Shown: positions 1-14,269 of the stretch, one piece after another | Layout of the letters: each line of letters begins with the position of its first letter | How positions within the stretch are numbered: the first letter of the stretch is position 1 | Position numbers and translations under genes: made by a program | DNA from: Phycisphaeraceae bacterium | Lineage (GTDB): Bacteria > Planctomycetota > Phycisphaerae > Phycisphaerales > Phycisphaeraceae | Assembly: GCA_029260695.1 (NCBI GenBank) | Contig: JAJDCT010000291.1 | Span: 1-14,269 of the forward strand | Reading direction: 5' to 3' | Length of the DNA: 14,269 nt | The notes under the pieces: generated by a model | Database searches by the model: none | What the model was told of the DNA's origin: nothing | The model's input: only the letters and a program-made list of their open reading frames with translations

Positions 1-1248
1 AGCGACGGTTGGGTCTTCGGCAATTCGTTCAACACCGAACTAGCGACCGGCGGGATCGAAGACGGCAACGCCCCGTTCGAGGCCGGCGCCTCCCAGCGCG
101 ACGCCGACTACCTGCACATCATCAATCTCGAGAAGGCGGCCAAGGTCTTCGAGGCGGGTAAATTTACAAAGGTCAAGGGCTTCCCGGTGATCTCGCTTAA
201 AACCAGCATCGAAGAGGGCATCCTGTTCTTCGCCCCCGAGCCCAAGAGCCCCCACGGCGTGGACGTCGCGCCCAAGGGCGAATACATCGTGGTCTCCGGC
301 AAGCTGGACCCGCACGTCACCATCTACAGCATGGCGAAGATAGAACAAGCGATTGCCGACAAGAACTGGACGCCCGATCAATACGGCGTGCCGGTGCTGG
401 ACTTTGACGCGATCGTGGAGGCGCAGGTGGAAGTGGGGCTTGGCCCCTTGCATACTCAGTTCGACGACAAGGGTTATGCCTACACCTCGTTGTTCCTGGA
501 TACGCAGGTCGCCCGTTGGACGCTGGGTGGTGCGTACTCCGATCTGCACGACGAGCCGGACTGGTCAGTCGCGGCCAAGACTTCGGTGCATTACAACGTC
601 GGCCACATCGCGGCCGCGGAGGGCGATACCGTCAGCCCCGACGGCAAATACCTGGTTTCGCTAAACAAGTGGTCGGTCGACCGATTCTTCACAACCGGGC
701 CCCTGTTGCCTCAGAACTTCCAGCTACTGGATATCAACGAACCCGGCGACAAGATGCAGTTGCTATACGACATGCCGATGGGTATCGGTGAGCCGCACTA
801 TGCACAGATCATCAAGGCCGACAAGCTCAAGCCCTGGAAGGTCTACCCCGAAGTCGGTTGGGACCCCCACACGCAATCGGTTTCCCCCGACGCGGTCAAG
901 GCCGGCGAAGAGCGGATCGAACGTAACGGCAAAAACGTCGATGTTTATATGTCTGTCGTCCGCAGCCATTTCAATCCCGAACACGTTGAGGTCAACCAGG
1001 GCGACCACGTCACATGGCACCTCACCAACGTCGAGCGTGCCCTGGACGCGACACACGGTTTTGCGATCCCCGCGTATAACATCAACCTCAGCCTTGAAGC
1101 GGGCGAACACCTGACGATCGAGTTCGACGCCGAGTTGCCGGGTACGTTTACGTTCTACTGTTCGGAGTTCTGTTCGGCACTTCACCTGGAGATGACCGGC
1201 TACCTGCGGGTCAAGCCGACCGAGGCCACCGCTGCGGCCACCGAGTGA
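1..1248 (+). CDS. nosZ: Nitrous oxide reductase NosZ, clade II type, C-terminal part (5' end outside window)
   Basis: NosZ is the periplasmic copper enzyme that reduces N2O to N2. The frame is open from base 1, so the N-terminus, including any signal peptide, lies upstream; about 415 codons are present. The beta-propeller carrying the CuZ cluster shows candidate histidine ligands in conserved settings (window residue numbers): SPHGVD (H85), DPHVTIY (H105), GPLHTQFDD (H151) and HYNVGHI (H197, H202). The C-terminal cupredoxin CuA domain has H352 in THGF, then CSEFCSALHLEM with C387, C391, H395 and M398, the complete CuA signature. Glu-Phe between the cysteines, where clade I enzymes have Trp-Phe, and the following nosB-like gene point to clade II. 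The stop TGA at 1246-1248 is followed at once by the ATG of the next gene. Family assignment is secure; clade is a strong inference. Confidence 0.97.
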   Translation, partial: SDGWVFGNSFNTELATGGIEDGNAPFEAGASQRDADYLHIINLEKAAKVFEAGKFTKVKGFPVISLKTSIEEGILFFAPEPKSPHGVDVAPKGEYIVVSGKLDPHVTIYSMAKIEQAIADKNWTPDQYGVPVLDFDAIVEAQVEVGLGPLHTQFDDKGYAYTSLFLDTQVARWTLGGAYSDLHDEPDWSVAAKTSVHYNVGHIAAAEGDTVSPDGKYLVSLNKWSVDRFFTTGPLLPQNFQLLDINEPGDKMQLLYDMPMGIGEPHYAQIIKADKLKPWKVYPEVGWDPHTQSVSPDAVKAGEERIERNGKNVDVYMSVVRSHFNPEHVEVNQGDHVTWHLTNVERALDATHGFAIPAYNINLSLEAGEHLTIEFDAELPGTFTFYCSEFCSALHLEMTGYLRVKPTEATAAATE

Positions 1249-1956
1249 ATGACTCTCATGAATCAAGCACTCAAGAAAATCATAGGCCCCAGAGTCCACC
1301 CCGACGAGTGGGCCGCTCACCGCGGCCGATACCTGCTGCCTACGGCACTGCTGGTGCTGGCCGCTGTGATGCTCCTCGTGTCGATATTCATACCCTTCTG
1401 GCATATGCAGCTCAACGCGCCGCAGTACCCCGGGGGGCTGCATGTGACGGGGTACGTCAACCACCTCACCGGAGACGTTCAGGAGATCGATTCGCTCAAC
1501 CACTACATCGGGATGCGGAAGCTCGATGAGGCGGCTCAACTCGAACGGTCGTTGTCGGTCATGATGATCACGGCGTTATCCCTGCTGGTACTCGGCGCGG
1601 TGTTTATCCACAGCAAGTGGGCCGCGCTACTTTCCGTGCCGGCGATCCTGTTCCCGGTGGGGTTTCTGGCAGATCTGCACCTGTGGCTTTCGTACTTTGG
1701 GAACAACCTCGACCCCACCGCACCGCTTTCAAGTTCGATCAAGCCCTTCACACCGCCCGTGTTGGGTACCGGCAAAGTCGGGCAGTTCGAGACCGTGGCG
1801 TCGGCGGGGCCCGGGCTGATACTCGCGGCGGTGGCTTCGGTGGTCATACTCGTTGCGCTGTGGCGGCACCGTGCGGCGTACAAACCGTTGTTGGATAAGC
1901 GGGCTCAAAGTGATAGTGGCGCTAGCCCGCCGCAGAAGTCTGATGTGACAGATTAA
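1249..1956 (+). CDS. nosB: NosB-like integral membrane protein of clade II nos clusters
   Basis: This 235-residue protein lies directly after nosZ, the usual place of nosB in clade II clusters such as that of Wolinella. NosB is a membrane protein of unresolved function required for or associated with N2O respiration. Four hydrophobic segments are visible at about residues 29-50, 103-121, 124-144 and 186-206. A periplasmic-type loop after the first holds FWHMQLNAPQYPGGL and, further on, DSLNHYIGM, whose Gly, His and Met residues look conserved and could bind metal (inference). The C-terminal tail is charged and low in complexity. The chosen ATG abuts the nosZ stop; a second ATG at 1258 (residue 4) is an alternative. 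I see no strong Shine-Dalgarno, so termination-reinitiation coupling is likely. Assignment rests on position, topology and the motif rather than on a computed alignment. Confidence 0.8.
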   Translation: MTLMNQALKKIIGPRVHPDEWAAHRGRYLLPTALLVLAAVMLLVSIFIPFWHMQLNAPQYPGGLHVTGYVNHLTGDVQEIDSLNHYIGMRKLDEAAQLERSLSVMMITALSLLVLGAVFIHSKWAALLSVPAILFPVGFLADLHLWLSYFGNNLDPTAPLSSSIKPFTPPVLGTGKVGQFETVASAGPGLILAAVASVVILVALWRHRAAYKPLLDKRAQSDSGASPPQKSDVTD

Positions 1957-1996
1957 TGTTATTCATCGGCCACCGTGTTTGTTTTGGGAACGCGAC

Positions 1997-2018
1997 GGCC
2001 GGTATCCAAGCACCGGCC
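1997..2018. other. Perfect hairpin in the nosB-nosDF gap
   Basis: GGCCGGT (1997-2003) and ACCGGCC (2012-2018) are exact inverted copies around the 8-base loop ATCCAAGC. The hairpin lies in the only sizeable gap of the nos operon, 18 bases before the preferred nosDF start at 2036. No T-run follows, so it is not a normal intrinsic terminator. It may be an mRNA stability or processing element, or may influence nosDF translation; the role is inferred only. Confidence 0.5.
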
Positions 2019-2035
2019 CCGGGCGTGGTATACAG

Positions 2036-4387
2036 ATGAGATGTCGTCCGAGTATCTGGATATGGGGTGCCTTCATCGCCATCGTGGGCGTGGTGGATCT
2101 ATGCGCTTCGCGGGTCGATGCGGGTTCGTTCAACCTGCAAGAGGCGGTCGATACGGCAGGGCCCGGCGACCGTATTTCGGTGCCGGCGGGGGCTTACCCC
2201 GGGCCATTGCTTATCAACCAGTCCGTCGAACTCATCGCCGAGCCCGGCACGATCATCCAAGGCGACGGCAAGGGCGATGTCGTTCAGATCCATGCCCCCG
2301 ACGTGACCCTGCGCGGATTCATCATCCGCAGCACGGGCAAAAGCCTGGATCGAGAGAACGCCGGGATCACCGTCCTTGCGCCCCGGGTCACTATCGAGGA
2401 CAACGTCTTTGAAGATGTCCTCTTCGGCGTCTATCTTAAAAAAGCTCACGACAGCGTCATCCGCAACAACCGCATCGGCGGTAAAGACCTGCCTGTAGCC
2501 CGCCGCGGCGACGGTATCCGGCTTTGGTACTCGCCTAACTCCGTTGTCGAGAATAACACCGTCAGCAACAGCCGAGACGTCGTCATCTGGTTCTCAAACA
2601 ACACGACGATCCGTGACAACACGGTCACACACGGGCGATACGGCCTGCACTTCATGTATTGCGACGACACCGTGTTGATCGGCAACCACCTCGAGGACAA
2701 CTCCGTCGGCGCATTCCTCATGTACAGCCGACGCCTGGTACTCGAAGACAACCGATTCATACGAAACCACGGCCCAAGCGGCTACGGCGTGGGGCTCAAG
2801 GAAGTCGACGGCGTTGAGGCAGAAGATAACCTGTTCGCCGGGAACCGTGTCGGCATCTACTTCGACAATTCACCCGCGTCGGTCGATATGGTTCAGCACT
2901 TTACCCGAAACGTGGTGGCGTACAACGACATCGGGCTGGCATTCATGCCCTCGATCGAGCGCAATGTGTTTACTGATAATAATCTCATCGACAACGTCGA
3001 GCAGGTCGGTGTTTTGGGTTCGGGGCAACTAAAAAACAATCAGTTCGTAGTCGATGGCCGGGGCAACTACTGGAGCGACTACACCGGATTTGATCTTAAC
3101 GGTGACGGCATCGGAGACATCAGCTACAAGGCACAGAGTCTTTTCGAGAATCTGATGGACCGCGAGCCCAAACTCCGGCTGTTCCTGTTCAGCCCCGTCC
3201 AGCAGGCGGTCGAACTCGCTGCCAAGGCGGTCCCGACGTTTCGGCCCCCGGTCAAAATCACCGATGAAGCTCCGCTGATGCAACCGGTCCCTATCTTCAT
3301 CGAGACGGGCAGCGAACCACCCGTTTGGCCCACCGCCACCGCGTCCTTGGTATTGTTGCTATCGGCCAGTGGGTTATTGATGTGTGGCATGACCGGCACA
3401 CTAGCACGCCCAAGCGCCGCCGCGGGCCCGACCCCTATGACAGAGCAGCCACACAGCAACCCATCGAAGCGGACCTCGGAGCCGATCCTGATGGCGGGGC
3501 GTATCACAAAGCGATTTGGCCGACTGACCGCGGTAAAGGATTTCGATCTGGACCTGCGGCCGGGAGAAGCGATCGCGTTGTGGGGCCCCAACGGCGCTGG
3601 CAAAACGACCGCGATGCGTTGCATGCTGGGGCTGATCCGTTGCAGGGGAACCGTTACGATCAACGGGTTCGACGTTCGCAAACGGCCAAAGCACGCCAAG
3701 CGATGTGTGGGTTACGTGCCGCAGGAGCTGGCCTTCTACGACGACTGGCGTGCCAAAGAATTGCTGGGGTTCTTTGCGAAGATCAAGCGGGTCGGCCGCG
3801 ACCGGGTGTCTGCTGTGTTGGACGAAGTCGGGCTGGCCGAACACGCCAGCAAGCGCGTCGGCGAGTTGTCCGGCGGGATGAAGCAGCGGCTTGCCCTTGC
3901 CGCGGCGTTGCTCGCCGACCCCCCGATCCTGATGCTCGATGAGTTGACCGCCAACCTCGACGCCGCTGCACGGGACAGCTTCCTTGGCCTGCTGTGTAGG
4001 CAGCGCGACCTTGGCAAGGCCATCCTGTTTACCTCCCATCGTCTGCGTGAGATTGAAGCTTTGGCCGATGGCGTCTTGGTTATGGCGTGTGGCGAAGTGG
4101 TATCTACTTGTGAGCCGCGCAAACTGGCGGAGGCGTTGGGCCTGAAATCTAGCCTACGTCTATGGATAGATCCGGACCGGCTGAACGAAGCTGTGCAGCA
4201 GCTGCGTACCGAGGGATATGACGCCGACCGCAACGGCCAGACCGTGAGGGTCAAGGTCCGTCCTGATGAGAAGGGGAAACCACTAGAGGCGCTATCTGCC
4301 GCGGGGATCGCTGTTCGGGACTTCGAGGTCGACAGCAACGACAGCAAGTCAGCGACCGGGTGTAGTGAACATGGGGGCGCACAGTGA
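2036..4387 (+). CDS. nosD-nosF: NosD-NosF fusion: periplasmic copper-maturation beta-helix joined by a TM linker to an ABC ATPase
   Basis: One uninterrupted 783-residue frame joins two normally separate NosZ maturation proteins. Residues 1-29 resemble a Sec signal peptide ending near VDA. Residues 30 to about 400 are the NosD right-handed beta-helix of CASH repeats, with hallmark GDGIRLWYS (158-166), RDVVIW (180-185), GRYGLHFMY (200-208) and the calcium-type loop DLNGDGIGD (353-361). A hydrophobic segment at about 434-456 would return the chain to the cytoplasm. From about residue 486 comes a full-length NosF ATPase: Walker A GPNGAGKTT (517-525, K523), signature LSGGM (611-615), Walker B ILMLDE (D635, E636) and H-loop His668. 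All catalytic motifs are intact. ATG 2036 is preferred because it begins the signal peptide; an in-frame TTG at 1979 would add 19 residues with no such character. An internal ATG at 3437 could yield free NosF, though no clear ribosome site precedes it. The stop overlaps nosY by four bases. Confidence 0.93.
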   Translation: MRCRPSIWIWGAFIAIVGVVDLCASRVDAGSFNLQEAVDTAGPGDRISVPAGAYPGPLLINQSVELIAEPGTIIQGDGKGDVVQIHAPDVTLRGFIIRSTGKSLDRENAGITVLAPRVTIEDNVFEDVLFGVYLKKAHDSVIRNNRIGGKDLPVARRGDGIRLWYSPNSVVENNTVSNSRDVVIWFSNNTTIRDNTVTHGRYGLHFMYCDDTVLIGNHLEDNSVGAFLMYSRRLVLEDNRFIRNHGPSGYGVGLKEVDGVEAEDNLFAGNRVGIYFDNSPASVDMVQHFTRNVVAYNDIGLAFMPSIERNVFTDNNLIDNVEQVGVLGSGQLKNNQFVVDGRGNYWSDYTGFDLNGDGIGDISYKAQSLFENLMDREPKLRLFLFSPVQQAVELAAKAVPTFRPPVKITDEAPLMQPVPIFIETGSEPPVWPTATASLVLLLSASGLLMCGMTGTLARPSAAAGPTPMTEQPHSNPSKRTSEPILMAGRITKRFGRLTAVKDFDLDLRPGEAIALWGPNGAGKTTAMRCMLGLIRCRGTVTINGFDVRKRPKHAKRCVGYVPQELAFYDDWRAKELLGFFAKIKRVGRDRVSAVLDEVGLAEHASKRVGELSGGMKQRLALAAALLADPPILMLDELTANLDAAARDSFLGLLCRQRDLGKAILFTSHRLREIEALADGVLVMACGEVVSTCEPRKLAEALGLKSSLRLWIDPDRLNEAVQQLRTEGYDADRNGQTVRVKVRPDEKGKPLEALSAAGIAVRDFEVDSNDSKSATGCSEHGGAQ

Positions 4388-5214
4388 GCCTGCGAACGAT
4401 CCTCATCATCGCCCACAAAGAGCTGCGTGATGCTCTGCGTAACCGATGGTTCGTTTTCTACACCGTGGCGTTTTCGGTACTCGCTATGGCGATGGCCTAC
4501 TTGTCGCTTGCCGGGTCCGGGATGCAGGGCTTGGCCGGGTTTGGTCGTACTACCGCAGGGTTGGTCAACCTGGTCATCCTGCTGGTGCCTTTGATGGGCC
4601 TGAGCATTGCGGCGCCCAGCTTGTCGGGAGAGCAGGAGCAGGGCACACTGGCCTACCTGCTTGCACAGCCGATCACCCGATTCGAAGCACTCTTCGGCAA
4701 GTACCTGGGGCTATCCACCTCACTGACCGCGGCTTTGGCGATCGGGTTTGGCATCTGTGGATTGGGGATCGCGGCCAACGGTGACACAGCCGGCGTAGGT
4801 GTGTACCTCACTCTGGTCGTCATGACCTTCGCGCTGGGCTTAGCGATGCTCAGCGTAGGAATACTGATCTCCACGTTGACACGCAAAGCCTCTCCGGCGA
4901 TCGGGATGGCGATCGTCGTCTGGCTATGCCTGACACTGTTCAGCGATCTTGGCCTCATGGGCAGCGCACTGGCGTTCAAACTCCGCATCCAGGATCTGTT
5001 CGGCCTGGCGTTGATAAATCCGCTACAGGTCTTCAAGATGTCCGTGCTGCACAGCATGAATGCCAGCCTGGACGTGCTTGGGCCTGCGGGTATCTACGCC
5101 ACTCAGGCCTACGGCCGATGGCTCTCGGCGCTATTCATCGGGTCTATCCTCGGCTGGATCATCTTACCCCTGGTATTGGCCAGCCTGACTTTTTCCAGGA
5201 AGTCTGTTTCATGA
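4384..5214 (+). CDS. nosY: NosY, ABC transporter membrane subunit for NosZ maturation
   Basis: NosY is the membrane part of the NosDFY complex, which works with NosL in assembling the copper-sulfur site of NosZ. This 276-residue protein has about six hydrophobic segments (roughly 22-42, 57-78, 108-130, 138-163, 172-194 and 244-268). It carries the ABC-2-type coupling region SGEQEQGTLAYLLAQPITR (81-99) and, late in the chain, the NPLQVFK segment (212-218) typical of NosY. The start is GTG within GTGA, overlapping the nosDF stop by four bases, with a GGGGG-containing stretch just upstream as a possible ribosome site. Its cytoplasmic partner is the NosF half of the preceding fusion, and its periplasmic partner the NosD half. 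The end overlaps nosL at ATGA. Confidence 0.95.
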   Translation: MSLRTILIIAHKELRDALRNRWFVFYTVAFSVLAMAMAYLSLAGSGMQGLAGFGRTTAGLVNLVILLVPLMGLSIAAPSLSGEQEQGTLAYLLAQPITRFEALFGKYLGLSTSLTAALAIGFGICGLGIAANGDTAGVGVYLTLVVMTFALGLAMLSVGILISTLTRKASPAIGMAIVVWLCLTLFSDLGLMGSALAFKLRIQDLFGLALINPLQVFKMSVLHSMNASLDVLGPAGIYATQAYGRWLSALFIGSILGWIILPLVLASLTFSRKSVS

Positions 5215-5786
5215 CCTGTTGTATAAGTAGACGGCCAGCCTATCGCATCAACACTTGGCTCATCTCCTTGGTGTGCCTCTGCAGCTACGGCTGTGGTGGC
5301 GGTGAGGATACCGGTCCGCCGACATTGCACCTCGGTTCGGATGTGTGCGACTACTGCAAGATGATTATCAGTGATCAGAAATTTGCCGCCGCCTGCATCG
5401 TCCGTGCTACGGACGGCCGAGTGCGTTCCGCCGCTTTCGACGACATCGGTTGTCTGTTGGAATATCAAGGCTCATCCGTCGAGGGCACCATCGAGTATCT
5501 GTACGTCACCGATTATGACAGCGGGGTATGGATGGACGCCACCGAGGCTTTCTACATACAAAGCCCGGAAATCCGCTCCCCGATGGCATCAGGCATCATC
5601 GCCAGCCAGACACAAGCGGACGCGGGCCGGCTCGCCGACAGGTTTGAAGGGGCTGTACTACGCTTCAATAAACTCGGCGGCCTAGCCGACACGAGCACAC
5701 CTGCTAATCTAACCAAAGAAATCTCACCCACCACAGACACCCAGCCCACGGGCGGTGACGAGGCCACGCTAGAGACCCCAAAATGA
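5211..5786 (+). CDS. nosL: NosL copper-chaperone lipoprotein
   Basis: NosL is a membrane-anchored copper(I) chaperone that supplies NosZ through NosDFY. The 191-residue product has a hydrophobic N-terminal segment (about 13-27) followed by SYGC, with Cys28 as the likely lipidated residue; Ser at -3 makes the lipobox atypical. The diagnostic NosL motif is DVCDYCKMII, with C46, C49 and M51 as the expected copper-site residues. Downstream FDDIGCLL, DYDSGVWMDA and the SPMASGIIA region are also family-like. After about residue 158 the tail becomes Thr/Pro/Glu-rich with no recognisable fold. The ATG at 5211 overlaps the nosY stop (ATGA). The frame stays open upstream, but an earlier start would lie inside nosY and would bury the signal sequence. 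The stop overlaps the next gene by four bases. Confidence 0.95.
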   Translation: MTCCISRRPAYRINTWLISLVCLCSYGCGGGEDTGPPTLHLGSDVCDYCKMIISDQKFAAACIVRATDGRVRSAAFDDIGCLLEYQGSSVEGTIEYLYVTDYDSGVWMDATEAFYIQSPEIRSPMASGIIASQTQADAGRLADRFEGAVLRFNKLGGLADTSTPANLTKEISPTTDTQPTGGDEATLETPK

Positions 5787-7051
5787 ATCAATCAGATGCA
5801 GAGCCTGGGAAATCGGACCACGCCGATACCACAAATCTGGCCCACCACTTCGACTCGCCCCGCCAGCAGTTCGACGCGGCGAAGCTGGGGATGTGGACCT
5901 TCCTTGCCACTGAAATCCTGATGTTCGGCGGTCTGTTCTGCGCCTACGCAGTCTACCGCAGTAACCACCCCGACATCTTCATCGCCGGGCACCACTTCCT
6001 CGATAAGAATATGGGGGCGTTGAACACCCTGGTGCTTATCGCCAGCAGCTTCACCATGGCGTGGGCCGTGCGCTGCGCACAATTAAATAAGCAACGTGCA
6101 CTGGTCCTGCTTCTCACGCTGACTTTCCTTGGCGGGGTCGTGTTCATGTGCGTCAAATTCGTCGAGTACAAGGCCAAATGGGAGCACGGCCTGACGCTGG
6201 GGCAATTCTACAACCCCGATGAGGCGTACTTCGCCTCACACTTCGATGGCGGCGGGCACGGAGCCGCGGGCGCAGAGGGGCACGGAGACGAAAATGAAAA
6301 GGCACCCGCCCCTGCCACGACGGAGTACGTCCCAAGCGACACGCGTGGCAGGATGGTTTTCGCAGGCACATGCTCCAGTTGCCACGGCCCCGACGGAACG
6401 GGCATGGTCAATCAAGGCGCCAACCTCCACGAGGGCGGGTTTGTCGCGTCGAAAGATGACAAAGAAATGCTCACCTTCCTCAAGATCGGCCGACAATCCT
6501 GGGACGCCGACAGCAAGATGAAGCTTCAGATGCCTGCCAAAGGCGGCAACCCCGCACTAACCGAAGAGCACCTCAAAGATGTCGTAGCCTACCTCCGTGT
6601 GCTAGTCAAAGAGGACGCCGCCTCAAATAAAGACGGGGCCCCGCAACCCGGTGCCACCGACAATGATCCCGACGGCGAGGGCGCGGGGGCCGTGTTGAGT
6701 GCCGCCGATCTGGCGCTGTTGATACCACGGACAAATATCGTCCCGCCCCCAGAGGGGACTCATGGGCTCAATGAGGTCTACTTCGTCAGCAAAGAGCCCG
6801 CCGTCTCTAACACCCCTGATGTCAAACCCGCAGACCTCCGCATGTTCTTTGCTATCTACTTCTTGCTCACGGGGCTCCACGGCTTCCACGTCCTTATCGG
6901 TATGATTGTTATCCTTTGGCTGATCGTTCGGTCTATCAAAGGCCATTTCGGTTCAGACTACTTCACCCCGGTTGATATGGGCGGTCTCTATTGGCACTTG
7001 GTCGATCTGATATGGATCTTCGTCTTCCCGTTGCTGTATCTCATACACTAG
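5783..7051 (+). CDS. Haem-copper-oxidase subunit III-like protein with an inserted cytochrome c domain
   Basis: The 422-residue protein has the five-helix form of oxidase subunit III (CtaE/CyoC/NorE family). Helices lie at about 35-58, 77-97, 105-127, 352-383 and 402-421. Family landmarks include E44 in ATEILMFGG, GLHGFHV (H366, H369) and YWHLVDLIW (H405, D408). Between helices 3 and 4, a loop expected to face the periplasm, sits a class I cytochrome c domain (about residues 187-273): CSSCH (197-201) attaches haem and M250 in LQMPAKGG is the likely distal ligand. His/Gly-rich and Asp/Gly/Pro-rich linkers flank it. The gene starts in an ATGA overlap with nosL and is the last gene of the operon. 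No subunit I or II gene is present, so it probably serves N2O respiration, perhaps as a membrane-bound electron donor to NosZ CuA (inference). A link to a terminal or NO reductase encoded elsewhere is the alternative. Confidence 0.9.
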   Translation: MNQSDAEPGKSDHADTTNLAHHFDSPRQQFDAAKLGMWTFLATEILMFGGLFCAYAVYRSNHPDIFIAGHHFLDKNMGALNTLVLIASSFTMAWAVRCAQLNKQRALVLLLTLTFLGGVVFMCVKFVEYKAKWEHGLTLGQFYNPDEAYFASHFDGGGHGAAGAEGHGDENEKAPAPATTEYVPSDTRGRMVFAGTCSSCHGPDGTGMVNQGANLHEGGFVASKDDKEMLTFLKIGRQSWDADSKMKLQMPAKGGNPALTEEHLKDVVAYLRVLVKEDAASNKDGAPQPGATDNDPDGEGAGAVLSAADLALLIPRTNIVPPPEGTHGLNEVYFVSKEPAVSNTPDVKPADLRMFFAIYFLLTGLHGFHVLIGMIVILWLIVRSIKGHFGSDYFTPVDMGGLYWHLVDLIWIFVFPLLYLIH

Positions 7052-7254: not shown

Positions 7255-10200
7255 ATGATGCCGGGACAGCTATCAGAGGGACAGAATCCGGGCTCTTCAG
7301 CCCGTGGTGGGTCACGTCTATCTGGCGTGAGCTTTCAAGAGGCATGTGACCCCGTCCGAGGCTTGGAGCCATTAGAACCAAGGCTGCTTCTCAGCGCCGT
7401 CGTGCCGGGAGAAGAGTTCATAACGCCGGTGTCGGCTTTCGGCTCCGAAGCGGTTGCCTCGGCGGTCGGTGGTGAGGTTATCCATCAGGAACAGACTCAA
7501 TTCGACAACTTCTTCGATCCCAATATTATCACCTTTGATTTTCCGATTGATCCGAATGCCATCAACGGCCGGATCGAGATCACAGCACTTTCAGACATCG
7601 ATAGCCTATCTGAGACTGTTTCCCTCGATGCCGAGGGGGTCGTGTCTTCGGAGTTATTCACCGGCCTTGATGATGGTATACGCCCTTTCTCATCAACGAT
7701 CGATTTGAGTGACACAGACCTGGCAACGCTGGCTGCGGACGGGAACCTGCACCTGGCGTTTACGCCGTCCGCTGCGGTCGACGACTTCGGGAATGTGCAG
7801 GAGTTCGTCACGGTCGGGCTGACATATGAAGTCCCGCCAACGCCTATTCCCTTGGACCCGTCGTCGCCGTTAATTAGTGGTACCTATCGGGGATCAGTTT
7901 CTGACGAGATAGATGTGGCCTCTGATGTAGACACGTTTACGCTTGATCTGGAGGCCGGCCAGACGTTACGTATCAAGGGCCTGCCCGATACCACCTTGAC
8001 ACTCACGGTAGAAGTGCGGGACCCTGCTGATGCGGTGATCTACGTCGGGTCCTCTACGTTGCCTGGCGAACGGATACTCCCGCAGGCGATCCCCTTGACC
8101 ACGGACGGGGCGTACAAGGTGATTGTCGGGTCAGACGGCACACTGGGTCAGTACAGCCTCGGTGTGGTCGTTAATGAAGCGATCGAGGAAGAGTCTATCG
8201 GTGGTGCGAGCAACGACTCGTTCGTTACCGCACAGGATCTTGACTTGCAGTTCATCGATGCCGGGTTCGGCTCTCAGCGTGCCTTGCTTCGAGGCACCGC
8301 GTCCGAGCACGGGCCGGGGGGCAGCATTGTCTTGACCGAATCATTCGAGTCAGGCCCAGTAGTAAACCGCTGGTTCACCTCATCGACCGGTAACGGACGA
8401 ATACAGTTCACATCTACATTCGGTGCGTCAGACGGGTCTTTCGCGCTGTTTATGGACAGCACCAATACCTGGGCCCGCAACGAGGCGACCTGGATCGTCA
8501 ATCTGTTTGGCGGTAAGCCGGCGGTGTTGTCCTACGATCAGATCAAGTGGTCCGACTTTGACAGCCCCCTGTTTAGCAGTTTCCCGAGCACCGGGTTCAA
8601 CGGTGACGGCGTTGCTTTCAGTGTAGACGGGATCACCTATTACTCTGCCAGAGCCAAGCTGAACACGCCGAGAGGGGTTTGGGAGAACGTGTCGATCGAT
8701 CTGGCCGCGGAGGCCGACCGGGTAGGTGTGACACTCGGGACAGACACACGGATCAGGTTCCAGCAATACGATTTTACTTCGCTGACCACCACCGGGCGTG
8801 GCTTCGACAACATCAAACTGACTACTTTTGACGGCGCAACGATCCCGTCGCCTTTGCCTGACTTCTATCGCTTTTCCTTGGCGGCCGATCAATTCGCAAG
8901 CATCGATCTACAAAGCACGGTCGGTGGGGCGATCGCATTCAACCTGTACGATGCGGCAGGCATTCTGCTGACGCCCGAGGGCGTGTCGTCGGAGGTTGGG
9001 ACCGCTAGTCTTGTTAATTTCAAGGCTCTATCTGCCGGTGAGTACTTCATCGAGGTGACGCAGGGCCTTGGCGAATACCAGTTGACAATCGTGCGTGATG
9101 GGACGCTCGAGGTAGAGCCCAACGAGACACCCGCCGAAGGGCAGCTGATTTCCCGGACAGGTGTCGTGCTCGGGGCCACGGACAGTGTCGGTGATACCGG
9201 TCACTTTAAGGTCCCGGTTGTGGCCGGTGATGCGCTTGTATTTGAAACGTTCACACTAAACGACGGCGTTTCTGGGCTAAACACGTTCGATCCGATCCTG
9301 ACGCTCTTCGATCCCAACGGGACATCGGTCGCCACCGACGACAACAGCGCCCCGGATGGTCGAAATGGGTTGCTCTCTCACACGGCGACGCTGTCGGGCG
9401 TCCACACCGTGGAGGTTTCCAGTAGCGGGACAACTGGTGCTTACACGCTGTCGGCTTCGGGCTTTACGGGGTCACTTGTCGAGCCGTTCGTAGTCGAATT
9501 CTCAACGGTCGAAGAAGGAGAGGTACTGAACAGTAATTTCGCCTTCATCGATCTGACCCTGAACGATGACGCGTTGCCTACAAGCGTCGATCCTGGCGAC
9601 TTCACCCTCAACGGTGTAGAGGCAACCGGCGTGACACACATCGTCGGCACACGGACCTATCGGTTTGACGTACCCACCGAGGCCTATCTCACCACCCTGA
9701 ACCAGATCGATCTGGTCGGTGGGTCCATCCGGAATATTGAGGGCGATTGGAACGATCCATTCTCCGCGGTATTTTCGGTCAACCAGCCTGGTGATCCCAT
9801 CATCATCGGGTCTTCTATCCTCGAAGGCGACAGCGTCCAGACCGGCGACCTCACGATCGTGCTGAAGTTCAGCGAAGTGATGAGGGACCCCTTCCGTGGA
9901 TTTGGCGAACACGCCAGACTCGACAAGCAGGCCGACGAAACCTTCGTCGACTACGACCCCTATACCAACGAGCTGACCCTGACCTACGCGAACCTGACCG
10001 AGGACGTCTACACGTTCAGCCTGCCCTATTGGGTTCATTTCCCAGGCGAACAAGATACGTATATCCAAGACATGGGTTTCCGCATGCTCGATGCGGATGA
10101 GAACCCGCTCACCACGGTGCCCAGCGGTGACGGCCAATTCGGTGGTACGTTCGACGTCAATTTTAATGTCGTGGATGATACAACTGCCCCCCTTAGCCTG

Positions 10201-13200
10201 AGCTTCTCCCCCATCCTACCAAGCGGGAGCTTCGCCCATCATGCGATCTTTACCGATGCAGCTGAGTTCCTTGATGATACCGATCGATTCGCGGTCGATC
10301 TGAACGCTGACTATTTCTATTCTTTCCTGATAACGCCCGACGATGAGCCTTCGTTGCAGATTGAAGTTGACCTGCTGGACGCGACTGGCGCGCTGATCGC
10401 GACTTCCACCGGTTCAAGCCCGGCCATCCTGAATAACCTGTCCGTTCCCGTGACAGGGACGTATACCCTTGTGGTCCGCACGACCGGGGGGGTCGGGTCA
10501 TACACCGGGGAGGTGCTGCTGAACGCGGGATTCGAAGAAGAGTTTTTCGGCGGGCCGACCAACGACGATCTCGCGACGGCGCAGGTCATTGATAGCTTGT
10601 TCGCAGACCTGGACGGCCCGATCCGTCAGGCGGTGGTGGTGGGCAACGTGCCGGCTGTCCCGCTCGCGTTCGTGGAAACTTTTGAATCCGGTGTACTGGG
10701 GCCTGAATGGACCACGAGCACAAGCAGCGCCGGTGGCAGCATCGAAGTCCGATCCGATCTCAATCAGGCGGAGGGAGACTTCGCGCTCTGGATGGAATCC
10801 CCTTTCGTTGATCCTTCGAACAATGAGGCGATCTGGACCGTCGATCTGACGAACGCCGCCGATGCACTGTTGACGTTCTCGTACGCTGAGGATATCGACG
10901 TCGCGCAATTGCTGCCATCCACTTACACCGGCAGTCGGAACGGCGACGGGGTCTCGATCAGTGACGACGGCGTGACTTGGCGCACGGTGTTCAACGCCTG
11001 GAACTCTGACCGACGTGTCTGGGGCACGCGTACCATTAACCTGGTCAACGAGGCCGGGCAAGCGGGGATGACCCTCGGGCCGGACTTTAAGATCAAGTTT
11101 CAACATTTTGAAGACAATGTTAATACGCCAGGTCGCCGCGGTTACGACAACATCCAGATCAGGGGTTTGAAGGTGGCCAAAACGCCCGCAGACCTCTACC
11201 GTGTCGGCCTTACGGCCGGGGAGCACCTCAGCGTTACGTTGAATGACGATGCGGGCGATCCGTTTGCGCTGGAGCTGTTGGACGCTGCGGGCCAGCTCCT
11301 GGCGGTTGGCGCACCGGGCTGGACCGATGCCGATGCGTTGATTGACGGGTTCAGTCCCCAGACCGATGGAGACTATTTTATCCGGGTCGTCAGCGACGCA
11401 CTGGATTACAAGCTGATCGTTACGCGCCAGGCCGGGTTCGCGCCTGAGACTTTTCTTAAGATCCCGATCGGGGCCACAGGCCAAGTCGTCAGCTCGATCG
11501 GGTTATCGAGCTCGGATACTGATCAGTTTACTTTGCTTGCCAACGCCGGGGATGTCCTGAGACTCTGGACCACCACACCGCAGGTCGGCGGGGCCGCGAT
11601 CCTTAACACACCGGACACCTTCCTTGAATTGTTCGATCCGGCAAACACGCTGGTTGTTAGCGGCGGCGGGGGAGGGGACGGAACCAATGCGCTGTTGAAC
11701 CACACCGTGGCACTGACCGGAACCTACACTGTCCGAGTCAGCACCGAACTAAGCACCCGCGGCGGGTACGTCCTGCACACGACCGGGCAGACCGGTGCGG
11801 CCCCGCCGTTCGAGGTGACTTTCAGCACATTGTTCGATGGCGAGTTCGTCAACACCGTCCCGAACGAGGTCTTGCTGAACTTCAGCCAGCCGGTCCGTCT
11901 GGACACCCTGGCGGCGTCGGACCTGACGATCGACGGCGTGCCGGCGCTGAGCGTCACGGTCAACGACCCGGACACCCTGACCTTCGAGCTGCCCGCGGGC
12001 CTGATCGACGGGCCTCACGACCTTGTGATCGCCGGCGACGCGCTCGCTTCGCTGACCGGAAGCCTGCTTGAGCCGTTCGCCGCCCAGTTCACGATCGACA
12101 CCGTCGCGCCGCGCGTGATCAGTTCCTCGATCCAGGACGGAGATATGTTCGAGCCCGGCCGGATCGAAGTGGTCATCCAGTTCGACGAAGAGATCGCGGT
12201 TGTGTTCGATCCGATCGACTTGGATGCCACGCTGAGCCCGCAGATCTTCGGGGGCTCGCTTATTCGGCCCACCTCCGCCGATTACGACCCGGTGTCATCG
12301 GTGCTGACACTCAGCTTCACCGACGTGCCGGAGGACAGTTACGTATTTCGGCTGGATAGTAGTGCTTCCAGTTTTGACTTCCATGACCGGGCGGGTAACG
12401 CGATTGACGGTGAGGCCATCGCCTGGCCTATCCCATCGAACATCTCGGGCAACGGCGTGCCCGGCGGCGACTTTATCATCAATCTCGACGTCGATCGTGT
12501 CACCCCGGATCAGTTGAAATTCCAGCGGCCCGTCCCTCTGGCGCCGCTAACCTCAGTGAGTCTGAACAATATTGGCCTGCTGTCTGATATCACCGACACC
12601 GACCCGTTCTCGGTGTTCATGCAGCCGGGGCAGATACTCACCGCGGTTTTGAGTTCGCCTTTTTCGTTCAATGATCCGTTCACCCTGACAGGGCCGGGTA
12701 TCAGCGCGACCTCGCCTGCGATCGGGGAGCCGGCGGTGCTGGAATACCGTCATACCGGGCCGGCGGGCGACGTGGTGCTGGTCGCCAGCGGGGAAGCGAT
12801 GTATGAGGAATACCGGTTCGACCTTTATATCAACACCGTGTTCGAGCAAGCGCTGCCCTTAACCACCGACGGTCTGGCCCCGGCGTTGGACCTTAACGCC
12901 GCGTTTGTCGGCGTGCCCGGGGCCGGTGTGGCAACCGCCAATGTCAGGGGTGTATTCGAAGACTTCACGCCCGACACCTACGCCGTGGACCTGCAGGCGG
13001 GCGAGTTCCTGGCGTTGGCACTGAACAAAGAAAACATATTCAGCGCCGCCACCGTCGAGATACTCGACCCCGTGACAGGTACTGTCCTGGCGACGAGCAC
13101 GCCCGTCTTTCCGCCCGAGCAGTCAACCGTGGACTTTGTCGCGCCCTCGGCTGGCCGATATGACGTGCGGATTAGCGCGACCTCTTCTACCGAATACCAA

Positions 13201-14269
13201 TTGACTGTCACACGAGGCGCCGTAGTGGATATCGAACCCAACGACGCGCCCGGCGATGGATTGAAGAGCCTGGATGACGCCAGCGCGGCCCTGGGTTATC
13301 TGCGGGAATTGGGCCAAGAGCGGCTGTTTGTCACAAGCACGTTTAATAATTCGGGCTCTGGCGCCGTTAGTGAGTTGGACCCCGACACCTTCGCGGTACT
13401 CAACCACTTCACCGTCGCGCCTATTCAGGGTGAATTCGGTCCTTTCGCGGCCATCACCTACGACGGTGTGAATCTCTACACACGTCGTTCATCTTCGCGG
13501 TACATACACGTTGTCGACCCTGACACCGGTGAGCTGCGGGGCCTGATCAGCACGCTTAGCCAGCTCGGCGGCGCGTCGGATATCGCGAGTTACAGGGGCG
13601 ATCTGGTTGTCCCGGACCGCTTCGGCAATCTCATATTTGTGGATCCCGAATCCTTGGCCGTGGTCAGGCAGATGTCCCTTGGCTCCCTACCATTCCAGAT
13701 TGTCGGTGCAGGCGATCGGGATTCATTCTTCATACAGACTGATTTCAGGGGTGCCGAGTTTGTTGAGATCGATGCCTTTACCGGACAGACGCTGAACACG
13801 ATCACACTAGGGCAGGGCGCATTCTCGTTCGTATCCGGTTTGGCATACGTGAACGGCCGACTGTATAGCTCGGTGTTCGGCGGGGAGTTGGCCGCTGCAT
13901 TCGACCCGGATACAGGTGAACTATTGCCCATCGAAGACCCCGGTTGTGTTTGTGCCAGCGTGTACGGCGGCGACGGCGTGATCCCTGGCTCCGTTGAGCC
14001 GGACGTGGATCTTTACTCGCTTGCACTCCCATCCGGGCAGCGGGTTACGCTTTCGACGATCACGCCTTTCGATGACCCTTTGGGTATGCCGTTGAACAGC
14101 CTGGACGCGGCGGTCAGTGTGCTGGGTACTGATGGTGTTGAGGTTGGGTTCGATGACAACAGCGCGGCGGACGGTAAGAATGCGTTGCTCACATTCACCG
14201 CCCTGGCCGGCGGGACCTACACGGTGGAGGTTTCGGCAGTGAGCGGCACGGGCGAGTACCTGTTGGAAG
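7255..14269 (+). CDS. Giant LEPR-XLL surface/secreted-type multidomain protein (3' end outside window)
   Basis: A single frame runs from ATG 7255 (second ATG at 7258; in-frame stop at 7219-7221) to the window end, 2338 codons with no stop. Residues 36-48 read GLEPLEPRLLLSA, the LEPR-XLL motif found near the N-terminus of very large planctomycete proteins; no classical hydrophobic signal peptide is present. After a beta-rich domain (about 50-200) come PPC-like beta-sandwiches, 'FESG' modules (about 361-526 and 1140-1306), SbsA/Big-type Ig-like domains recognised by repeated 'SSI..GD' openings, and a propeller-like segment (about 2023-2234). They form tandem supermodules of about 780 residues. 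I find only three cysteines: residue 31, in the N-terminal leader, and 2231 and 2233. A role in adhesion, cell-envelope structure or matrix binding is plausible but not shown; no catalytic domain was recognised. The downstream sorting signal, if any, lies outside. No link to nos function is evident. Confidence 0.92.
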   Translation, partial: MMPGQLSEGQNPGSSARGGSRLSGVSFQEACDPVRGLEPLEPRLLLSAVVPGEEFITPVSAFGSEAVASAVGGEVIHQEQTQFDNFFDPNIITFDFPIDPNAINGRIEITALSDIDSLSETVSLDAEGVVSSELFTGLDDGIRPFSSTIDLSDTDLATLAADGNLHLAFTPSAAVDDFGNVQEFVTVGLTYEVPPTPIPLDPSSPLISGTYRGSVSDEIDVASDVDTFTLDLEAGQTLRIKGLPDTTLTLTVEVRDPADAVIYVGSSTLPGERILPQAIPLTTDGAYKVIVGSDGTLGQYSLGVVVNEAIEEESIGGASNDSFVTAQDLDLQFIDAGFGSQRALLRGTASEHGPGGSIVLTESFESGPVVNRWFTSSTGNGRIQFTSTFGASDGSFALFMDSTNTWARNEATWIVNLFGGKPAVLSYDQIKWSDFDSPLFSSFPSTGFNGDGVAFSVDGITYYSARAKLNTPRGVWENVSIDLAAEADRVGVTLGTDTRIRFQQYDFTSLTTTGRGFDNIKLTTFDGATIPSPLPDFYRFSLAADQFASIDLQSTVGGAIAFNLYDAAGILLTPEGVSSEVGTASLVNFKALSAGEYFIEVTQGLGEYQLTIVRDGTLEVEPNETPAEGQLISRTGVVLGATDSVGDTGHFKVPVVAGDALVFETFTLNDGVSGLNTFDPILTLFDPNGTSVATDDNSAPDGRNGLLSHTATLSGVHTVEVSSSGTTGAYTLSASGFTGSLVEPFVVEFSTVEEGEVLNSNFAFIDLTLNDDALPTSVDPGDFTLNGVEATGVTHIVGTRTYRFDVPTEAYLTTLNQIDLVGGSIRNIEGDWNDPFSAVFSVNQPGDPIIIGSSILEGDSVQTGDLTIVLKFSEVMRDPFRGFGEHARLDKQADETFVDYDPYTNELTLTYANLTEDVYTFSLPYWVHFPGEQDTYIQDMGFRMLDADENPLTTVPSGDGQFGGTFDVNFNVVDDTTAPLSLSFSPILPSGSFAHHAIFTDAAEFLDDTDRFAVDLNADYFYSFLITPDDEPSLQIEVDLLDATGALIATSTGSSPAILNNLSVPVTGTYTLVVRTTGGVGSYTGEVLLNAGFEEEFFGGPTNDDLATAQVIDSLFADLDGPIRQAVVVGNVPAVPLAFVETFESGVLGPEWTTSTSSAGGSIEVRSDLNQAEGDFALWMESPFVDPSNNEAIWTVDLTNAADALLTFSYAEDIDVAQLLPSTYTGSRNGDGVSISDDGVTWRTVFNAWNSDRRVWGTRTINLVNEAGQAGMTLGPDFKIKFQHFEDNVNTPGRRGYDNIQIRGLKVAKTPADLYRVGLTAGEHLSVTLNDDAGDPFALELLDAAGQLLAVGAPGWTDADALIDGFSPQTDGDYFIRVVSDALDYKLIVTRQAGFAPETFLKIPIGATGQVVSSIGLSSSDTDQFTLLANAGDVLRLWTTTPQVGGAAILNTPDTFLELFDPANTLVVSGGGGGDGTNALLNHTVALTGTYTVRVSTELSTRGGYVLHTTGQTGAAPPFEVTFSTLFDGEFVNTVPNEVLLNFSQPVRLDTLAASDLTIDGVPALSVTVNDPDTLTFELPAGLIDGPHDLVIAGDALASLTGSLLEPFAAQFTIDTVAPRVISSSIQDGDMFEPGRIEVVIQFDEEIAVVFDPIDLDATLSPQIFGGSLIRPTSADYDPVSSVLTLSFTDVPEDSYVFRLDSSASSFDFHDRAGNAIDGEAIAWPIPSNISGNGVPGGDFIINLDVDRVTPDQLKFQRPVPLAPLTSVSLNNIGLLSDITDTDPFSVFMQPGQILTAVLSSPFSFNDPFTLTGPGISATSPAIGEPAVLEYRHTGPAGDVVLVASGEAMYEEYRFDLYINTVFEQALPLTTDGLAPALDLNAAFVGVPGAGVATANVRGVFEDFTPDTYAVDLQAGEFLALALNKENIFSAATVEILDPVTGTVLATSTPVFPPEQSTVDFVAPSAGRYDVRISATSSTEYQLTVTRGAVVDIEPNDAPGDGLKSLDDASAALGYLRELGQERLFVTSTFNNSGSGAVSELDPDTFAVLNHFTVAPIQGEFGPFAAITYDGVNLYTRRSSSRYIHVVDPDTGELRGLISTLSQLGGASDIASYRGDLVVPDRFGNLIFVDPESLAVVRQMSLGSLPFQIVGAGDRDSFFIQTDFRGAEFVEIDAFTGQTLNTITLGQGAFSFVSGLAYVNGRLYSSVFGGELAAAFDPDTGELLPIEDPGCVCASVYGGDGVIPGSVEPDVDLYSLALPSGQRVTLSTITPFDDPLGMPLNSLDAAVSVLGTDGVEVGFDDNSAADGKNALLTFTALAGGTYTVEVSAVSGTGEYLLE
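7289..7304. other. Hairpin at the 5' end of the LEPR-XLL gene
   Basis: CGGGCT (7289-7294) and AGCCCG (7299-7304) are perfect inverted arms around the loop CTTC. It falls in codons 12-17 if translation starts at 7255. If the real start were the in-frame GTG at 7327, it would instead lie in the leader RNA. No T-run follows. It could modulate early translation or be chance; the latter is possible for a 6-bp stem. Confidence 0.35.
7861..10200 (+). repeat. Supermodule A of the giant protein
   Basis: In order: a PPC-like domain (about 7861-8175); a linker with the NDSFVTAQDLD pattern that opens a second PPC; an inserted FESG module (about 8335-8830); the rest of that PPC (about 8845-9110, DFYRFSLAADQ to YQLTIVRDG); a third PPC introduced by VEPNET (about 9115-9465); and two Ig-like domains (about 9481-9780 and 9784-10190). 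Boundaries are by eye. It aligns at protein level with supermodule B at an offset of 2322-2349 bases. Confidence 0.7.
10201..12540 (+). repeat. Supermodule B of the giant protein
   Basis: The same domain order as A. Matched landmarks are FESG at 10681 versus 8344, NGDGV at 10939 versus 8599, DNI of the module end at 11143 versus 8803, and PPF/EPF starting the first Ig-like domain at 11803 versus 9481. All give a period near 2.33 kb (about 780 residues). Codons differ widely between copies while protein motifs are kept, which suggests an old duplication. The first Ig-like domain of this copy lies in an unusually GC-rich stretch. Confidence 0.7.
12541..14269 (+). repeat. Supermodule C of the giant protein, rearranged and cut by the window end
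   Basis: It begins with a diverged PPC-like domain (about 12541-12840). An uninterrupted PPC follows (about 12880-13215, DTYAVDLQAGE to YQLTVTRGA), with no FESG module where A and B carry one. The next linker, IEPNDAPGDG, leads into a propeller-like insertion before the third PPC resumes at about 13999 (VEPDVDLYSLALPSG). The window ends at the YTVEVS...GEYLLE strand, equivalent to about 9465 in A and 11790 in B, so Ig-like domains may follow. Confidence 0.6.
13321..13956 (+). other. Beta-propeller-like segment within the giant protein
   Basis: Five repeats with a central Asp-Pro/Asp-Ala turn followed by a Thr/Ser-Gly or similar step are seen: LDPDTFAVL, VDPDTGELRG, VDPESLAVV, IDAFTGQTL and FDPDTGELL. 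The Asp codons lie at 13378, 13516, 13642, 13771 and 13903, a regular 42-46-residue spacing typical of YVTN/Kelch/NHL-style propeller blades. It ends near a Cys-Val-Cys pair. Fold assignment is inferred from periodicity and strand pattern. Confidence 0.55.

Follow-up and report, generated by a model that had tools for sequence, protein, structure and literature searches.

Several respiratory systems contain proteins that resemble one or other part of the protein described here. NorE, the COX3-like protein of nor operons, is likewise a COX3 paralogue found outside an oxidase operon and in a denitrification setting; to our knowledge it has no cytochrome domain, unlike the present protein. NosC-type systems of clade II (nosC; NosC1 and NosC2 of Wolinella) have a c-type cytochrome in the nos operon that is the likely donor to NosZ, and in most clade II lineages that have neither NosR nor the NosGH module of Wolinella the route from quinol to NosZ has, as far as we know, yet to be traced. 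The caa3 oxidases, including that of the genome studied here, have a CoxB with a C-terminal cytochrome c, that is, an oxidase subunit with a built-in haem c. Finally, a five-helix COX3 is found in the aa3/caa3 oxidases linked to ACIII, and in F. johnsoniae the ACIII-oxidase supercomplex is described, in a Chem. Rev. review, as held together via this five-helix subunit III (PMC8361435). No description of a COX3-cytochrome c fusion was found in the literature searched, subscription papers lying mostly outside its reach.

The stretch of DNA analysed (the window) is one entire contig of 14,269 bases from a genome that is 77% complete in 492 contigs. Its plus strand carries the end of a nos operon in which nosL is followed by a gene for such a fusion. 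From sequence comparisons, we read the product as a membrane-bound monohaem cytochrome c for N2O respiration, whose COX3 scaffold would dock on ACIII or the oxidase and feed NosZ, and we give this reading a probability of about 0.5. The genes of the operon, in order, are:

1..1248, plus strand: 3' part of nosZ, 415 aa, 5' end lost at the contig start; PF18764 and cupredoxin matches.
1249..1956, plus strand: membrane-protein-like ORF of 235 aa in the nosB position, a name given by position only.
1979..4387, plus strand: nosD and nosF as a single frame of 802 aa; PF05048, PF00005 and TIGR04247 above cut-off.
4384..5214, plus strand: nosY, ABC-2 permease; PF12679; four-base overlap with nosDF.
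5211..5786, plus strand: nosL; PF05573, 51.4 bits (read from 5193); one ATGA shared with nosY, another with the fusion gene.
5783..7051, plus strand: COX3-cytochrome c fusion, 422 aa; Pfam, alignment and structure model.

The window nosZ is of the Sec-dependent (clade II) type, with a TIGR04246 match of 537.9 bits that reaches the end of the profile and lies below the cut-off of 625 because the gene is truncated. The 235-residue product matched no Pfam or NCBIfam profile; its relatives lie after nosZ and before nosD in almost every nos locus read, with 53-90% identity across most of these loci. The nosDF frame, which may in fact start at an internal ATG, at 2036, is a single frame in all five other fusion loci of family f1 and in none of the 11 other nos loci tested. 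G847, which lay outside that test set, apparently also has a single nosDF frame, of 809 aa. The nosL product gave no NCBIfam match. nosZ stops right before the next ATG, and four-base overlaps join nosDF to nosY, nosY to nosL and nosL to the fusion gene, which supports the view in the initial annotation that the fusion is a member of the nos operon. Beyond the fusion gene, an open reading frame (7255-14268) of 2338 aa or more runs off the contig end; it has the motif LEPRLLLSA near its start, contains repeats, and presumably encodes one of the giant secreted or surface proteins known from planctomycetes.

The fusion protein itself can be divided as follows:

5858..6184, plus strand: N-terminal COX3 half, residues 26-134, helices 1-3; model helices and COX3 profile positions 75-179.
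6329..6622, plus strand: inserted class I cytochrome c, residues 183-280; Pfam, fold and the subfamily of nosZ-neighbour cytochromes.
6371..6385, plus strand: haem-binding motif CSSCH, residues 197-201; Cys and His invariant in 70 selected rows.
6530..6532, plus strand: Met250, the presumed distal ligand of the haem; present in all 70 selected rows.
6827..7042, plus strand: C-terminal COX3 half, residues 349-420, helices 4-5; model and COX3 profile positions 190-255.

The protein scores above the curated cut-off of the COX3 profile and is modelled with a COX3 fold of five helices, and the insert has the CxxCH motif, distal Met and fold of a class I cytochrome c, to which haem would be attached covalently. 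Pfam, the fold and the gene junctions confirm the earlier description of a COX3-like protein with an internal cytochrome c and a four-base overlap with nosL, and COX3 topology, though with a weak charge bias, would place the cytochrome-bearing loop in the periplasm, where the haem had been proposed to lie. In its fold, its five helices and nearly all conserved residues the protein resembles the five-helix COX3 of ACIII-linked oxidases; the same loop is enlarged in the genome's own coxC product (365 aa), which has no CxxCH, whereas the fusion adds a haem c domain and occurs in other gene neighbourhoods. A misplaced coxC is ruled out, as the genome has a separate coxC inside its cox operon. Nor is the fusion unique to the window, since relatives with the same architecture were found elsewhere. 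A full-length relative (80% coverage) was present in none of 140 matching plasmid records.

By its sequence scores, the inserted domain belongs to a cytochrome subfamily that otherwise lies beside nosZ. Each of the 23 fusionless nos loci read has a gene for a mono- or dihaem cytochrome upstream of nosZ, and in 22 of the 23 the product has a hydrophobic N-terminal segment. The window domain scores 95.5 bits against this nosZ-neighbour set and 36.6 bits against the best of 25 control cytochromes c (CoxB, NarI, NxrC-like, Cco and others from five genomes, with the coxD-linked ones of G054 and G062 excluded); 30 fused domains score 83-112 bits against the set and at most 41.6 bits against any control. 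These scores rule out that the fused domain is simply close to any cytochrome c of these genomes. The fusion differs from caa3 CoxB in being a different subunit, and the CoxB cytochrome of this genome is one of the controls. The subfamily likeness concerns the nosZ-upstream cytochromes of related bacteria; in those bacteria the cytochrome is a separate protein, whereas that of the fusion sits inside COX3. In an AU test that grouped the fused with the nosZ-neighbour cytochromes, apart from the controls, p was 0.296, which neither rejects such a group nor establishes it.

The distribution of the two arrangements was examined in 301 genomes of the order, 84 of which have nosZ (E <= 1e-60). A separate cytochrome lies within 3.5 kb of nosZ, a test of distance and not of side, in at least 72 of the 84, a nos-linked fusion is present in eight, and among the matches listed none has both. 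Four have neither arrangement on the nosZ contig among the matches listed; three of these have a subfamily cytochrome on a different contig, and the remaining one has a nosZ that starts close to a contig start. The readable flanks of fused nos loci (G004, G011, G047, G063, G847 and a short flank of G671) contain no second subfamily gene upstream. Other CxxCH genes nearby are two four-CxxCH frames upstream in G063 and, in G002, a five-CxxCH frame on the opposite strand just after the fusion. Given the subfamily of the fused domain and the mutual exclusion of the two arrangements, the fusion is most likely a replacement for the electron donor of NosZ, a role that we infer for the separate cytochrome. 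The proposal in the initial annotation of a donor that takes the place of a NosC-type route thus gains support within this sample. Among the matches listed, 18 of 119 subfamily genes lie away from nosZ and outside the count of fused genes; these include the divergent fusion of G227 and possible nos genes split by contig ends. In the cox operons of G054 and G062 the gene next to coxD on its 3' side (L060:9723-9980, L155:8014-8271) encodes a cytochrome c of this subfamily. Both the 18 genes and these two coxD-linked ones count against our preferred reading.

Fused genes were counted at 47 loci, including L055 (G033), whose N-terminal COX3 half is unmatched, and two divergent ones (G155, G227) bring the total to 49. 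The partners at the 47 loci are nosL (11), NXR-like genes (15), nar genes (8) and cbb3 genes (1), with no partner at 12. The fusion lies directly 3' of nosL in three families of the class: f1 (G000, which is the window, G001, G002, G004:C34, G005 and G011:C80), f3 (G047, G063, G270 and G671) and f104 (G847). A molybdopterin subunit is present at eight of the NXR-like loci; six others have only an ethylbenzene-dehydrogenase-like (EB_dh) haem subunit with two cytochromes c, and the remaining one, the second G675 copy, has only a weak molybdopterin-subunit match. At the eight nar loci and both divergent loci the fusion comes after narK, with narGHI visible in some and narK alone in view at four of the eight; the NarI of one such fused locus, taken as an example, has two cytochromes c by Pfam. 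The G292 fusion sits ahead of cbb3 genes. Ten of the 12 partnerless loci are from genus g69, and several of the 12 are at contig ends. In G226 (L082:8997-9268, g69) a lone fusion has upstream of it a narK-like remnant spread over two frames, which suggests, from the sequence, that a nar operon was lost and the fusion left behind. Contig C20 of G198 (L166) carries a second cox operon, whose CoxA shares 87% identity with the CoxA of the window genome (63% for the other G198 copy); this contig is probably foreign, and the fused locus on it may not be G198's own.

These neighbour counts come from tblastn with references from the window genome and fetched loci, so that distant partners may have escaped detection, and several of the loci are truncated at contig ends. 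Pfam backs the partner names EB_dh, molybdopterin, Fe-S, NarI and cbb3 at example loci. The names NXR-like, NarK, Rrf2, SCO1 and NosB are our assumptions from family likeness and position, NXR being our own reading, and we take the identified partners to be enzymes that exchange electrons with a periplasmic cytochrome c, as expected from their families.

The initial annotation had expected the architecture to co-occur with nosZ rather than with coxAB, and had assigned it to N2O respiration alone. As regards the oxidase genes the expectation held: coxA or coxB was in view at none of the 49 loci, and 11 of 47 follow nosL. Consistent pairing with norB was likewise absent, a single qNOR-like gene (782 aa; L052:5091-7436; PF22085 and COX1) being found at the nos-linked locus G011:C80. 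An exclusive tie to nosZ, however, is ruled out by the NXR-like and nar loci and by fused genomes that lack nosZ, and dedication to N2O cannot be upheld with 15 of 47 loci beside NXR-like and eight beside nar genes. Within the order sample 27 of 301 genomes have the fusion, and nosZ was detected in only eight of those 27; in a ninth of them, G001, a contig end interrupts the nos operon. The 36 of 47 loci without a nos link count against our preferred reading.

The gene neighbourhoods also bear on a role in maturation, in which the fusion, together with NosL, would assist copper loading or redox conditioning of NosZ and would not be an electron carrier. NosL is a copper chaperone, and the overlap of its gene with that of the fusion fits such a role. 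The recurrence of the fusion beside nar and NXR-like genes does not, as enzymes of these kinds need no such copper centre, and what the fusion excludes from nos loci is the separate cytochrome, the remaining nos genes being kept. We consider a maturation role very improbable.

Conservation of the COX3 part was assessed at 59 reference columns, namely the COX3 positions at which at least 95% of 23 CoxC rows share a residue. In counts made without G847 and other later-found loci, 57-58 of these columns are preserved in the COX3 halves of ten nos-linked fusions (of 11). The window fusion keeps 58, against 26 for COX3b of the same genome and 23-28 for 16 COX3b paralogues from cox operons. Fusions without a nos link keep 53-59, except that of L067 (34, cut by a contig end). 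Between genomes, fused COX3 cores diverge to within 5 points of true CoxC in seven of eight pairs (G000/G011, 68% for both; G000/G063, 60% for both), the exception being G000/G047, where 52% for the fusion and 61% for CoxC indicate clearly faster divergence of the fusion, a point against our preferred reading. The divergent fused row of L055 was left out of both the conservation and the divergence comparisons.

This constraint is informative about how the scaffold might be used. Were COX3 a mere membrane anchor for a cytochrome that feeds NosZ, or did it dock on the NosZ CuA domain, as the initial annotation suggested by analogy, the operon and donor arguments would apply just as they do to our preferred reading, and the simple hydrophobic N-terminal segment of the relatives' cytochrome indicates that an anchor would suffice. 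An anchor should not, however, retain nearly all of the subunit III columns that COX3b has largely lost, and docking on CuA sits poorly with the occurrence of the same scaffold beside nitrate reductase-like genes, as nitrate reductase-like enzymes have no CuA. We therefore regard this alternative as unlikely. The subunit-III-like constraint argues instead for docking on the oxidase or ACIII, and we infer that the COX3 scaffold still docks where subunit III docks, which would wire NosZ to that site.

A scaffold so conserved could also belong to an alternative caa3 subunit III with an extra haem c, expressed under low oxygen along with the nos or nar genes and feeding oxygen reduction, not NosZ. 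Genus g69 speaks for this possibility. A PF00510 search found no coxC-type COX3 besides the fusion in any of the seven g69 genomes tested, and in all six cox loci that extend past coxA (L142-L147) the very next gene is coxD, the operon being ActF-linked. For G112, whose coxA stops at the contig end, coxC absence comes from the PF00510 search alone; G112 and G151 also have an extra short COX3, of about 200 aa, beside a COX1 gene. From this arrangement, the g69 fusion is probably the oxidase's own subunit III, so that subunit-III-like conservation may reflect oxidase service. Elsewhere, G124 has a cox operon without coxC and an apparently unfused copy in another part of the genome. Against an alternative caa3 subunit III stand the lack of coxA or coxB in view at any of the 49 fused loci, the retention of a normal coxC in all eight nos-linked fusion genomes read (of 11), and a fused cytochrome that is of the nosZ-neighbour subfamily and excludes the separate gene. 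On balance we think it rather doubtful that the nos-linked fusions serve oxygen reduction in this way. An AU test on COX3 cores rejected a single clade for 31 fused rows (p 0.014; 193 columns, with several rows weakly placed), and the fused proteins are likely, from this test, to have arisen more than once.

Several observations would fit a wiring of NosZ to ACIII. In the window genome an ORF ahead of SCO1-coxB matches the solved ActF (6f0k_F, E 6e-53), and its relatives hold the same position in most cox loci read. Published reports describe, in Methylacidiphilum, a nos cluster within the ACIII gene cluster (PMC11102522) and, for F. johnsoniae, a proposed branch from ActE to other acceptors (PMC8552683). 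The PF00033 cytochrome b profile found no match in four of nine nos-linked fusion genomes tested (G002, G011, G047 and G063); it matched in the other five, G000 (the window), G001, G004, G005 and G270, so that in the window's own genome and four others ACIII need not be the donor, and the bc route may serve in the window's own genus.

Returning to the preferred reading, the cytochrome domain, a separate protein in related bacteria, would here sit inside a subunit III paralogue, in its periplasmic loop. More than an anchor, the COX3 scaffold would probably still bind at the subunit III site of ACIII or of a neighbouring caa3 oxidase, an adaptor role suggested by the part of the five-helix subunit III in holding the supercomplex, the ActF match, the Methylacidiphilum cluster and the ActE branch. 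Quinol electrons would leave ACIII for the fused haem and pass from there to the CuA centre of NosZ, both the transfer from fusion to NosZ and its direction being predicted from the gene comparisons. Copies linked to nar and NXR-like genes would be the same plug fitted to other partners, namely enzymes facing a cytochrome c in the periplasm, and beside NXR-like genes the direction of electron flow could be reversed, as in nitrite oxidation. All of this evidence is comparative and comes mostly from MAGs. More tentatively, and in our judgement with the odds against it, the fusion may be a plug-in subunit III with haem c, of multiple origins, which competes for the subunit III site of the ACIII/caa3 supercomplex and reroutes its electrons to interchangeable enzymes (NosZ, nitrate reductases of the NXR-like or NarGHI type, and cbb3) in what would be an N-oxide respirasome.

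If the preferred reading is right, one gene holds both the likely donor to NosZ and a possible docking site, which predicts a supercomplex that could be purified and provides a sequence marker by which to recognise it. The finding suggests, in addition, that in such genomes an annotation as oxidase subunit III can hide a gene of anaerobic respiration. In some planctomycetes, the putative electron feeder of the enzyme that destroys N2O, a greenhouse gas, would thus be built into a copy of a subunit from oxygen respiration.
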